This document shows positions 12,292-15,381 of a DNA stretch of 64,000 nucleotides, piece after piece. Source of the DNA: Microbacterium abyssi (lineage in GTDB: Bacteria; Actinomycetota; Actinomycetes; Actinomycetales; Microbacteriaceae); contig NZ_CP063815.1 in the NCBI RefSeq assembly GCF_015277895.1, positions 2,046,001-2,110,000 on the forward strand, written 5' to 3'. The notes under the pieces were generated by a model. That model worked only from the letters and a program-made list of their open reading frames with translations. It ran no database searches and was not told the origin of the DNA. Each line of letters starts with the position of its first letter. Position 1 is the first letter of the stretch. A program made the position numbers and the translations under genes.

Positions 12292-12864
12292 TCACCGCAG
12301 ATCAAGTCGCATGAGCACTCTCGCGAACCCGTTGAGTACGGAGTCGGTCTCGGATGCCTGCGTGAATCCGGCGTTCTCGAACAGTGATTTCGTGCCGACG
12401 TACGCCATCGTCATGTCGACCTTCTCGCCACGGTTGTCCACCGGGTACGACTCCACGGCGGGCGCGCCGCACTCTCTCGCATAGGCGACGGCTCCGGCGA
12501 CCAACTCGTGCGTGATCCCCTGCTTGCGGAACCCGGGGCGCACGCGGACGCACCATAGCGACCACACGTCGAGATCGTCGATACGCGGGATCCGTCGATT
12601 GTTCGCGAAGCTCGTGTTCCGCCGCGGCTGCAGCGCCGCCCAGCCGACCGGTTCGTCATCCAGGTAGGCGATCACGCCGGGCGGCGGGTCCTGGTGACAC
12701 AACTGCCGCATGCGTTCGGCTCGCTGCGGCCCGCGCAGTGCGTTGTTCTCCTTCGACCCGATCCGGTAGCTCAGGCAGAAGCACACGTTCGACGTCGGTT
12801 TCTTGGGGCCGACGAGCGTCGCGACATCCTCGAAGACTGTCGCGGGCCGCACCTCGATGCTCAT
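12292..12864 (-). CDS. GNAT-family N-acetyltransferase
   Basis: A 190-residue GNAT-fold protein that would transfer an acetyl group from acetyl-CoA; the acceptor is unknown. The beta-4/alpha-3 cofactor segment is WSLWCVRVRPGFRKQGIT near residues 93-110, matching the V-x-P-x-x-R-x-x-G pattern of the pantetheine loop. The N-terminal half (VCFCLSYRIGSKENNALRG) resembles a GNAT subgroup often annotated only as hypothetical. ATG at 12864 gives a start at MSIEVRPAT. It lies upstream of dnaE with a 42-bp gap. Confidence 0.83.
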   Translation of the reverse strand: MSIEVRPATVFEDVATLVGPKKPTSNVCFCLSYRIGSKENNALRGPQRAERMRQLCHQDPPPGVIAYLDDEPVGWAALQPRRNTSFANNRRIPRIDDLDVWSLWCVRVRPGFRKQGITHELVAGAVAYARECGAPAVESYPVDNRGEKVDMTMAYVGTKSLFENAGFTQASETDSVLNGFARVLMRLDLR

Positions 12865-12904
12865 GCCGACAGTGTGGCGGATGCCACTGGCATCCGCCAC
12901 CGCG

Positions 12905-13630
12905 TCACCCTGCGTCCGCCTCGACGATGTTCTGGTCGGTGTTCGAGTAGGAGATGGAATCGGCCGTGCTGCCGACCAAGCCCATGGTCACATCGAGCAG
13001 CCCCGGCTCGATCAGGTCCAGGGACGGTGGGGTGTCGGTGCCGAGCGTGAGCGGCTCGCCGCCCATCGAAGACGCCGAGACCGATCCGAGGTACACCGAG
13101 ACGTTCCCCTTCAGCGACATCGTGTCGGCCGTGGTCACCAGTCCCGGCCCGTCGTGCGGGCGGACGGTGAGCGAGAAGCCGCTGATCGTGATGGAGTCCG
13201 CGCTGATCTTGAGTGCGCGGACGCTGCCGCCGTCCACTGTCGGCACGCTGACGATGCTGATGCCCTGCAGCCCGGTGAACGACAGCCCTCCGGAGCGCAT
13301 CGATGCCGGTGTGCCCGTGAAGATCGGCGCGCCGTCGTCGACGGGCGCCGGCACCGGCGTCTCATCGGGTGCGGAGTCTGCCTCGCCCGGGTCCGCAGGC
13401 GTCTCGGCATCCGGGATCAACTCATCAACCACACCGGGGACCTCCGGGGCGTCTGTAGCTGGCGGAGTCGTGGTCTTCCCCGGCGCCGGGTCATCCTTCG
13501 GGCACAGGAACGACAGGAACGAGTCGCAGAAGCCGGCGGGACGCGGCGACGGAGCGGCGTTCACGATGAGCGGCGCCGTGATGAGCAGCGCGGCGATGAC
13601 GGCACCTGCGCGCAGGCGACGCGACGTCAC
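12905..13630 (-). CDS. Secreted beta-rich protein with Pro/Asp linker (operon partner of DUF6230/DUF6114)
   Basis: A 241-residue protein that I cannot assign to a family. It has a signal peptide (RRLRAGAVIAALLITAP, cleaved near residue 26), a pair of cysteines (FCDSFLSFLCP), then a Pro/Thr/Asp-rich linker at about 45-110. A C-terminal domain of regular short beta segments follows (ALKISADSITISGFSLTV, TADTMSLKGNVSVYLGSV). These echo the strand-rich style of the DUF6230 protein two genes upstream. The GTG at 13630 overlaps the DUF6114 stop by 4 bases, so translation is coupled. The protein is probably surface-exposed. Confidence 0.75.
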   Translation of the reverse strand: MTSRRLRAGAVIAALLITAPLIVNAAPSPRPAGFCDSFLSFLCPKDDPAPGKTTTPPATDAPEVPGVVDELIPDAETPADPGEADSAPDETPVPAPVDDGAPIFTGTPASMRSGGLSFTGLQGISIVSVPTVDGGSVRALKISADSITISGFSLTVRPHDGPGLVTTADTMSLKGNVSVYLGSVSASSMGGEPLTLGTDTPPSLDLIEPGLLDVTMGLVGSTADSISYSNTDQNIVEADAG

Positions 13631-14064
13631 CCGGACTCCTCCGTCGGCGCCTCCTGTCGCGACCCGCGACGCGCCTTCGACTCCGCTCGCGCCTCGGGGG
13701 TCATCCATGCGACCACGAGCACGCCGCCGACGCACGCGATGATCGTGCCGAGCAGGAACCCGCCGAGATTGACGCCGACCAGCGCGTAGAGGCCCACAGC
13801 CAGGGAGAGCACCCCGTAGAACACGTGGTGAGCGGGCATCGTGATGGCGAGAACGCCCAGCAGCAGCAGCGCGATCGGGATGATCGTCGCCTGCAGCCCT
13901 TCGATGCCCAATTGCACGCGCAGATGGCCGATGTCCAGCTGGCCGGAGAAGAACATCTCGACACCGGACACGGCGAGCAGCAGCCCTCCGACGAACGGGC
14001 GGTTGCGGCGCCACGCCGCGAAGCGCCGCCATCGGCTGCGAGCGTTCCGGCGAGACACGGGCAC
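13627..14064 (-). CDS. DUF6114 membrane protein
   Basis: A 145-residue protein resembling DUF6114 of streptomycetes, function unknown. It has a basic N-terminus (SRRNARSRWRRFAAWRRNRP) followed by four hydrophobic helices: roughly 22-40, 52-70, 75-95 and 100-118. A short charged tail follows. In this family the gene usually follows a DUF6230 gene, as here. GTG at 14064 is chosen because GGAG lies 9 nt upstream, within the short gap after the DUF6230 stop (14079); a second GTG 6 nt further in is possible. Confidence 0.75.
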   Translation of the reverse strand: MPVSRRNARSRWRRFAAWRRNRPFVGGLLLAVSGVEMFFSGQLDIGHLRVQLGIEGLQATIIPIALLLLGVLAITMPAHHVFYGVLSLAVGLYALVGVNLGGFLLGTIIACVGGVLVVAWMTPEARAESKARRGSRQEAPTEESG

Positions 14065-14078
14065 GTCGACGCTCTCCG

Positions 14079-14675
14079 TCAGAAGCACGGGGTCGATCCG
14101 TCGGTCAGCTCGAGCGTCATGCCGGTCAGCGTGAACACCGAAGCCTGCGTGCTCCACGCGGTCTGCTGGAGGTTCGCGATGGAGACGGTGTCGGCATCCT
14201 GGGCGAAGTCGCCGCCGGTGCCCTTGGCGTCGGTCTGCACGGTCGACGCGTCGACGCCGATCCTGATGTTCCCGAACGACGCATCGCCCGCAAGTCCCGT
14301 CATCCCGATCTGCAGGTCGCTGGCGCTCGCAGGGTTGTCGCCCCCGCCCGCCTTGATGAGGACGCCGACGGTGCCGAGCGGCGTCTCGGTGATCACCGAC
14401 TGGCACAGGTCGCTGAGCGTCGCGCTCTTGATGTTCGCGATCGCGACGGTGTGCTCGCCGCCCTCGGAGTCGGTAGCGACGCCCGCGTACTGCGAGAACC
14501 CGGTGCCCTCGAGCTGACTGGCGGAGATCTGGAACTGGCTTCCCGACACGGCGAAGGAGACCGGGACCTGCCCCTGCGCGACGCCGCCGAGGAGCAGCGC
14601 GGCGACGACGCCAACGGGTACCGCTGCGAGCGTGACGCGACCGGCGTGGGACTTCGTGAGTGACGGGAACTTCAT
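14079..14675 (-). CDS. DUF6230 exported protein
   Basis: A 198-residue protein matching the actinobacterial DUF6230 pattern: basic N-terminus, one hydrophobic segment (AAVPVGVVAALLLGGVAQG), then QVPVSFAVSGSQFQISASQL and LCQSVITETPLGTVGVLIKAGGG. Homologues are sometimes labelled cholesterol esterase; nothing here supports that, because no GxSxG serine hydrolase site is visible. The ATG at 14675 has a strong AGGAGG 5 nt upstream. It is the first gene of a three-gene operon, whose promoter and a perfect palindrome lie at 14719-14747. Confidence 0.8.
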   Translation of the reverse strand: MKFPSLTKSHAGRVTLAAVPVGVVAALLLGGVAQGQVPVSFAVSGSQFQISASQLEGTGFSQYAGVATDSEGGEHTVAIANIKSATLSDLCQSVITETPLGTVGVLIKAGGGDNPASASDLQIGMTGLAGDASFGNIRIGVDASTVQTDAKGTGGDFAQDADTVSIANLQQTAWSTQASVFTLTGMTLELTDGSTPCF

Positions 14676-14718
14676 CGATCCTCCTATGTCGGGCCGTCGT
14701 CGTCGGCGGCCGTGTTCG

Positions 14719-14746
14719 AGCATAGCCCTCATTGACTTCTAGTCAA
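14719..14746 (-). promoter_or_regulatory. Predicted promoter of the DUF6230 operon
   Basis: On the minus strand a -35 hexamer TTGACT (14746-14741) and a -10 hexamer TATGCT (14724-14719) are separated by 16 nt. A transcript would begin near 14712 and carry the AGGAGG site before the ATG at 14675. The -35 and part of the spacer lie inside the palindrome 14731-14747. Confidence 0.6.
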
Positions 14747-14747
14747 T
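14731..14747. promoter_or_regulatory. Perfect 17-bp palindrome, likely TetR operator
   Basis: ATTGACT-TCT-AGTCAAT: two perfect 7-bp arms around a 3-bp centre, in the 106-bp gap between the divergent TetR gene and DUF6230 operon. It covers the operon's -35 region and ends 22 bp before the TetR -10. Size, symmetry and position fit a TetR-dimer operator that represses the operon and perhaps the regulator itself. Binding is inferred. Confidence 0.65.
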
Positions 14748-14769
14748 ATGGGTAGCCCTGCCCACTCGA

Positions 14770-14775
14770 TAGGCT
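14770..14775 (+). promoter_or_regulatory. -10 element of the TetR gene (likely leaderless)
   Basis: TAGGCT ends 6 nt before the ATG at 14782, and no ribosome site lies between. Transcription would start at or next to the start codon. The same arrangement precedes several other lead genes in this window. Confidence 0.5.
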
Positions 14776-14781
14776 GAGCGC

Positions 14782-15381
14782 ATGCCGGAGGAGCGTCGCA
14801 GTCGTCTCACGCCGGAGGACCGTCGCACGCAGCTGATGGCCATCGGGGTGAACTTCCTCGCCGACCACCCGCTGGACGAGCTCACGATGGACGAACTGGC
14901 TCGCCGCGCCGGCGTCTCCCGCGCGCTCGCGTTCCACTACTTCGAGTCCAAGCAGGGGATGCATCGTGCCGTGGTGACCACAGCACGCGACAGTCTCCTG
15001 CACGCGACGGCACCGCGCGCCGATCTCCCGCCGCGCGAGCGCATCGATGACACACTGCGACGATTCGCGATCTTCGTGCGCGATCATCGCGGCACGTTCC
15101 TGTCGCTCGTGCGGGGCGTCGCCAGCAGCGACCCCACCGTGCGCGCCCTGGTGGACGAGTCACGCGAGCTCAACGCGGAGCATCTCAGAGTGGCATTCGG
15201 AGAGCTCGGGATCGTCGACACGCGGGCGGTACGGATGGCGCTGCGCGCCTGGGTCGCGTTCGCCGAGGAGGTCTTCGTCAGCGTCGCCGCCGATGACCTG
15301 GCTGACGACGCCGAACTCGTCGCCCTCCTTGTGCGCACGCTCGATGCGACCGTCGCCGCCTCGCGCGACAGCGCGCTGTGA
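14782..15381 (+). CDS. TetR-family regulator of the DUF6230 operon
   Basis: A 199-residue TetR-type repressor. The helix-turn-helix lies at about residues 38-57 (MDELARRAGVSRALAFHYF), and the remaining helical domain (FVRDHRGTFLSLVRG) would bind an unknown ligand. It is transcribed divergently from the DUF6230/DUF6114/secreted-protein operon, and the palindrome between them is the natural target. It converges on rluD with only 7 bp between the stops. The ligand cannot be read from sequence. Confidence 0.88.
   Translation: MPEERRSRLTPEDRRTQLMAIGVNFLADHPLDELTMDELARRAGVSRALAFHYFESKQGMHRAVVTTARDSLLHATAPRADLPPRERIDDTLRRFAIFVRDHRGTFLSLVRGVASSDPTVRALVDESRELNAEHLRVAFGELGIVDTRAVRMALRAWVAFAEEVFVSVAADDLADDAELVALLVRTLDATVAASRDSAL

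Follow-up and report, generated by a model that had tools for sequence, protein, structure and literature searches.

Operons with the DUF6230-DUF6114 pair occur in several actinobacterial families, and the job that these protein families do at the cell surface is not yet understood. The Pfam families PF19741 (DUF6230) and PF19609 (DUF6114) carry no function, and our literature search found no functional study of either. Presumably, Streptomyces genomes label DUF6230 proteins as "cholesterol esterase." That name appears to go back to the purified enzyme of Xiang et al. (2007).

The described counterpart is the Streptomyces locus SCO5419-SCO5423. There, SCO5419 is the thioredoxin gene trxA4 (PMC2631018), SCO5423 is pyk2 (PMC7494193), and SCO5420 is called a cholesterol esterase whose level rose almost 37-fold on Tween, namely Tween 40 (PMC7494193). 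By comparing eight Streptomyces-type loci, which come from large genomes (7.1-9.9 Mb) that presumably belong to Streptomyces, we found the order thioredoxin-DUF6230-DUF6114-third gene in all of them, with a pyruvate kinase gene, read by eye, next in seven; the complete order of SCO5419-SCO5423 is the same as in L067-L073. Because the order matches, SCO5420 would be the DUF6230 protein, SCO5421 the DUF6114 protein and SCO5422 the third protein, an assignment made by gene order alone. An earlier note on this DNA, which described such pairs in streptomycetes as lacking a function, had overlooked this label and the Tween induction (PMC7494193; DUF6230 by gene order). Other proteins of the same name, which may or may not be DUF6230 members, appear in three further reports. 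In Streptomyces scabiei, two "cholesterol esterases" are extracellular and counted in the lipid class (PMC5158115), and one of the two was not suberin specific (PMC4098958); one protein of Streptomyces SirexAA-E went up on xylobiose/xylose (PMC12772271).

Organization of the locus

The window analyzed here is a stretch of 64,000 nucleotides from Microbacterium abyssi (contig NZ_CP063815.1, positions 2,046,001 to 2,110,000). Gene calls and Pfam confirmed that positions 12905-15381 hold, as first read from the letters, a DUF6230 gene, a DUF6114 gene and a gene for a secreted-type protein without assignment, all in one operon, and a TetR gene divergent from it. The DUF6230 gene (14079..14675, minus strand) encodes an exported-type protein of 198 amino acids with a hydrophobic segment at residues 14-32 and is a clear family member (158.6 bits against a cut-off of 27.5), as is the DUF6114 membrane protein (about 13627..14088, minus strand, start codon uncertain; 101 bits against 27.9). 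The third gene (12905..13630, minus strand) begins with GTG and encodes 241 amino acids. On the plus strand, the regulator gene (14782..15381) encodes the helix-turn-helix domain TetR_N (PF00440, 41.1 bits) and the C-terminal ligand domain TetR_C_46 (PF21943, 41.2 bits), which places it in the TetR family. The third gene overlaps the DUF6114 gene by 4 bases, and the DUF6114 and DUF6230 genes overlap by up to 10 bases, depending on the DUF6114 start; because of these short overlaps, a single transcript for the three genes is likely.

The cassette is tightly enclosed. A GNAT gene (12292-12900) lies 4 bases from the third gene, with dnaE on the same side, and rluD (15389) lies 7 bases from tetR, followed by lspA-, divIVA-, sepF- and ftsZ-like genes; the GNAT and pseudouridine synthase names were checked in Pfam, and all the others were read by eye. 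In the genome G106 of the same genus, which has no DUF6230, GNAT and rluD are directly adjacent and the four genes are absent, which argues that they come and go as one block.

Conservation and distribution of the operon

To follow the operon in relatives, we scanned with a single peptide pattern, which gave 275 of them, and kept the best 80. These named loci belong to Microbacterium, Leifsonia, Brevibacterium, Arthrobacter, Curtobacterium and other genera. Among these best 80, the highest DUF6230 identities are those of Microbacterium sp. Bi121 (95%) and M. murale (94%). In 77 of the 80 loci, DUF6230-DUF6114 is followed by the third gene, and in the remaining 3 the contig ends there; with the window's third protein as tblastn query, 76 loci matched, and L113, which was missed, was recovered by profile. 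DUF6114 is detectable by tblastn in all 80, including L150, L153 and L164, where the simple gene caller used on relatives left it uncalled; this caller missed or shortened genes, and those of L058 and L063 look affected as well.

A profile search of 120 family genomes placed DUF6230 and DUF6114 above cut-off in an identical set of 16, and the third protein occurs in the same 16 (in G022 on another short contig), with one extra weak match that is probably chance. The two sets of loci partly overlap (L058/L136, L053/L117). Across the phylum, 19 of 296 genomes, carrying seven family labels, hold DUF6230, and DUF6114 is over the cut-off in 21. As judged from these comparisons of sequence, the operon is conserved far beyond chance, and the three genes are one conserved operon. 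Conservation of the four-gene order in Microbacteriaceae, which the earlier note had named as a result that would support it, was confirmed, and neither finding that would have told against its proposal turned up: the third gene and TetR are conserved beside DUF6230-DUF6114, and the third protein has no clear match to an enzyme family.

Several loci depart from the common arrangement. Brevibacterium sp. UCMA 11754 (L153, L155, L156, L157, L160) shows several near-identical operon places on different contigs, which may be assembly redundancy or real copies. In Rhodococcus sp. 008, the large mobilizable plasmid pR8L1 (L086) carries DUF6230-DUF6114 followed by an unnamed 178-amino-acid protein without the third domain, which shows that plasmids can carry the core pair. 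Loci L078, L079 and L080, from distant actinobacterial families, have a diverged DUF6230 beside a short DUF6114, with a convergent TetR gene in L079. At L077:7155-10881, tandem DUF6230-DUF6114 genes precede a gene for a 326-residue exported-type protein outside any Pfam family.

The third protein and its link to DUF6114

The third protein starts with one hydrophobic signal-like segment (residues 8-26), followed by a Pro/Asp/Glu-rich linker, and ends in a beta-rich domain at about residues 100-236; it also has a C35/C43 pair. Searches returned no Pfam family at an E value of 1 or below, no NCBIfam family and no convincing relative in the PDB. It is a real if unnamed member of the operon, as first supposed, with the third gene in nearly every named locus and no family found for it. 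At its C terminus, the domain can be aligned with the one encoded by the third gene in the eight Streptomyces-type loci (hhalign probability 96.2, E value 2e-9, 125 columns), and the Microbacteriaceae profile finds all eight of them (E values 2.6e-5 to 3.4e-12) as well as L075 (4.9e-9). The domain thus also belongs to the main Streptomyces-type operon, and the idea that a third member is peculiar to the present version did not hold. The same profile found nothing in L076-L083, L086 and L087, which are second copies and distant families; therefore DUF6230-DUF6114 can do without the third domain. The third protein represents an unnamed family that accompanies the operon in Micrococcales and in the main Streptomyces-type locus. 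L081 and L082, where second DUF6230-DUF6114 copies of large, Streptomyces-like genomes occur without a third gene, have a divergent gene for a secreted-type protein of 214-222 amino acids (cluster c38) next to them.

The earlier note had also suspected a shared fold between DUF6230 and the third protein. Hhalign between the two gave a probability below 1%, and this comparison detected no shared fold. The note's description of DUF6114 as "four-helix" and of the third domain as "beta-rich" agrees with the hydrophobicity scan, which gives DUF6114 three to four hydrophobic segments, and with the structure model.

A single polypeptide comprises both DUF6114 and the third protein in five members of the set of 16 family genomes (L052, L056, L058, L065, L066) and in L075; L084 looks fused but matches the third-protein profile weakly (E value 0.007) and was left out of this count. 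In every fusion, the DUF6114 domain is followed by a hydrophobic segment, and in L065 by two. These fusions argue that the third protein contacts DUF6114 and that the beta domain lies outside the membrane; with four membrane spans in DUF6114, the segment behind it would put the beta domain outside. Of the proposal that the membrane protein exports or anchors the two beta-rich proteins, anchoring is favored by the fusions for the third protein, and export found no support: the window's two beta-rich proteins each have their own signal-like segment, nothing shows that DUF6114 exports anything, and a role in export is not indicated.

TetR and its putative operator

A dedicated repressor had been postulated from the gene arrangement, and in agreement with this we found a palindrome that comes and goes with TetR. 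Its core, TTGAC-N5-GTCAA, occurs in 44 of 50 such tetR-DUF6230 intergenic stretches, the window included. The longer form TATTGAC-N5-GTCAATA is present within 2 mismatches in 47 of the 52 loci with this TetR nearby (within four genes and above 150 bits; L108, with a split gene, was set by hand, and L115 is counted among the loci with TetR and operator) but in none of the 28 without it. The five exceptions with TetR lie at three mismatches (one locus) or at five with altered spacing (four loci), and two Brevibacterium loci without TetR reach three mismatches. Because 27 of the 28 TetR-less loci are Brevibacterium, 5 of them from one genome, few independent losses stand behind these counts (Brevibacterium, L154, and L055, L059 and L062). 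In a separate genome-survey set, the operator was found at 3 mismatches or fewer in 11 of 11 loci with TetR, and at 6 to 8 mismatches in L055, L059 and L062, which lack TetR, and in L060, whose contig ends 382 bases upstream of DUF6230, so that the presence of TetR cannot be judged there. Across these alignments, TetR and the palindrome are found together and missing together.

In the window, the palindrome ATTGACTTCTAGTCAAT occupies 14731..14747 (no strand assigned). One half-site, TTGACT at 14741-14746 (minus strand), is predicted to serve the operon as its -35 element, with TATGCT at 14719..14724 (minus strand) as the -10 element. In 38 of 46 sites, TANNNT sits 16 bases behind TTGACN, while the next best spacing accounts for 11 of 46; this suggests that one half-site is likely the -35 box and therefore that bound repressor would block the promoter. 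The TTGACN5GTCAA core occurs at three places in the genome, this locus among them, in keeping with a local regulator. We propose TATTGAC-N5-GTCAATA as a putative TetR operator over the operon -35 box, new here, to which the regulator would bind. On the plus strand, a TAGGCT element at 14770-14775 lies six bases before the tetR start codon, so tetR may be read from a leaderless transcript; CCTA is found there in many of the listed loci.

Sequence features of DUF6230

Residues 33-41 of DUF6230 (14553-14579, AQGxVPVSF), around the expected signal-peptide cut, are among its most conserved stretches. Such conservation would be unusual if the signal were merely removed, and the stretch was used as a genome-scan pattern.

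The stronger rival to our reading takes DUF6230 as a genuine secreted esterase of a new kind, belonging to the actinomycete cholesterol esterase family, with DUF6114 and the third protein as anchor or chaperone, in an operon that feeds on sterol or fatty esters. The name and strong Tween induction of SCO5420 (DUF6230 by gene order; PMC7494193) and the two S. scabiei proteins in the lipid class (PMC5158115) favor it, and S44, H75 and D142 are kept in 46, 45 and 46 of 46 close relatives, so a Ser-His-Asp set is possible there. However, in a more diverse set these residues occur in 22, 16 and 20 of 22 proteins, and GxSxG is absent from all 78 DUF6230 proteins of 190-220 amino acids in the 80-locus set and scattered over 4 of 36 diverse ones. 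Among the 31 core members, which exclude the five most distant of the 36, S44, C91 and C197 are invariant, and conservation stays below 85% at every His, Asp and Glu; across all 36, the three invariant residues occur in 33, 32 and 34. No hydrolase fold was found for DUF6230, in a search with a poor structure model, and Foldseek returned no PDB fold at an E value of 0.001 or below for DUF6230, with the same model, or for the third protein. Since GxSxG is not conserved and the His is not consistently kept beyond close relatives, a classical esterase is unlikely from its sequence. An esterase of a new kind is a possible explanation of the operon, somewhat less probable than the one we favor.

Proposed function

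We tentatively favor a repressor-controlled monoderm envelope module handling lipids or lipid esters, to which we give a probability of about 0.43; in broader terms, fatty or sterol-like molecules are probably what the operon deals with at the surface of the cell. In this module, ligand-free TetR would sit on the palindrome and block RNA polymerase, until a small lipophilic molecule, perhaps a fatty acid, an acyl ester or a sterol-like compound (a guess as to the ligand), frees it. DUF6230 would be exported and bind or process lipid esters outside the membrane, a role modeled on its Streptomyces counterpart SCO5420. In the membrane, DUF6114 would hold the third protein, whose beta-rich domain would be exposed outside by way of a Pro/Asp linker, which might extend into the peptidoglycan. 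The three proteins might jointly bind lipids at the surface, or present them there, and hand them on to the membrane. The lipid link comes by analogy from one Streptomyces transcript figure and one name, for a protein taken as DUF6230 by gene order, and no lipid gene was seen as a shared neighbor of the operon in the neighborhoods compared. The behavior of the like-named proteins of S. scabiei (PMC4098958) and SirexAA-E (PMC12772271) also speaks against it, if they are DUF6230 proteins.

A bolder version, which we consider improbable, is a lipid shuttle of Gram-positive actinobacteria in which DUF6230 and the linker-borne beta domain are lipid-groove proteins that move hydrophobic molecules across the wall to a DUF6114 base in the membrane, with a lipid-sensing TetR as the switch. 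If it were true, the operon would correspond in function to Lpt-like carriers, and the name cholesterol esterase would be a misassignment. A non-lipid envelope or stress module, in which DUF6230 and the third protein have a structural or adhesive role at the surface, DUF6114 links them to the membrane and TetR answers a toxic compound, would suit the low-complexity linker, the lack of a recognizable conserved catalytic residue in the third domain and the neighboring rluD/lspA/divIVA/ftsZ-like region of the window (names by eye), but it is unlikely, with no transporter or stress gene seen traveling with the operon and with the Tween induction of the Streptomyces counterpart (PMC7494193) against it.

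The Microbacteriaceae version has a compact repressor-operator switch, so a reporter could identify the inducer and, with it, the purpose of the system. The operon also makes it possible to test an old enzyme name, cholesterol esterase, and contributes a protein family that has no name yet.

Comparison with known systems

Among characterized regulators, FasR (NF053731) is of the same TetR family, but the window TetR reaches 44.1 bits, far below the equivalog cut-off of 330. EthR and most other TetR matches cover only the DNA-binding end, whereas 2qib matches residues 6-194 (E value 5e-18). The beta-jellyroll proteins of the Lpt system (LptA, LptF) and BPI gave no sequence match and no Foldseek match at an E value of 0.001 or below, and the low Z scores against them may reflect arrangement only.

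Another close system is the SCO5419-SCO5423 locus. By gene order, it shares DUF6230 and DUF6114 with the window, followed in the same way by a third protein that has a long linker and a related domain at its C terminus. In contrast, loci of this type have no TetR of the window kind and no operator, a thioredoxin gene stands upstream, and the third protein has 421-483 amino acids by our own gene calls, compared with 241 in the window. They do have a TetR of another type (TetR_C_11 in L067), divergent from the upstream thioredoxin gene; this other type (cluster c10) is present in 6 of the 8 loci (L067, L068, L070, L071, L072, L074). The Microbacterium unit, equipped with a repressor and an operator of its own, is one version of a core operon from several actinobacterial families.
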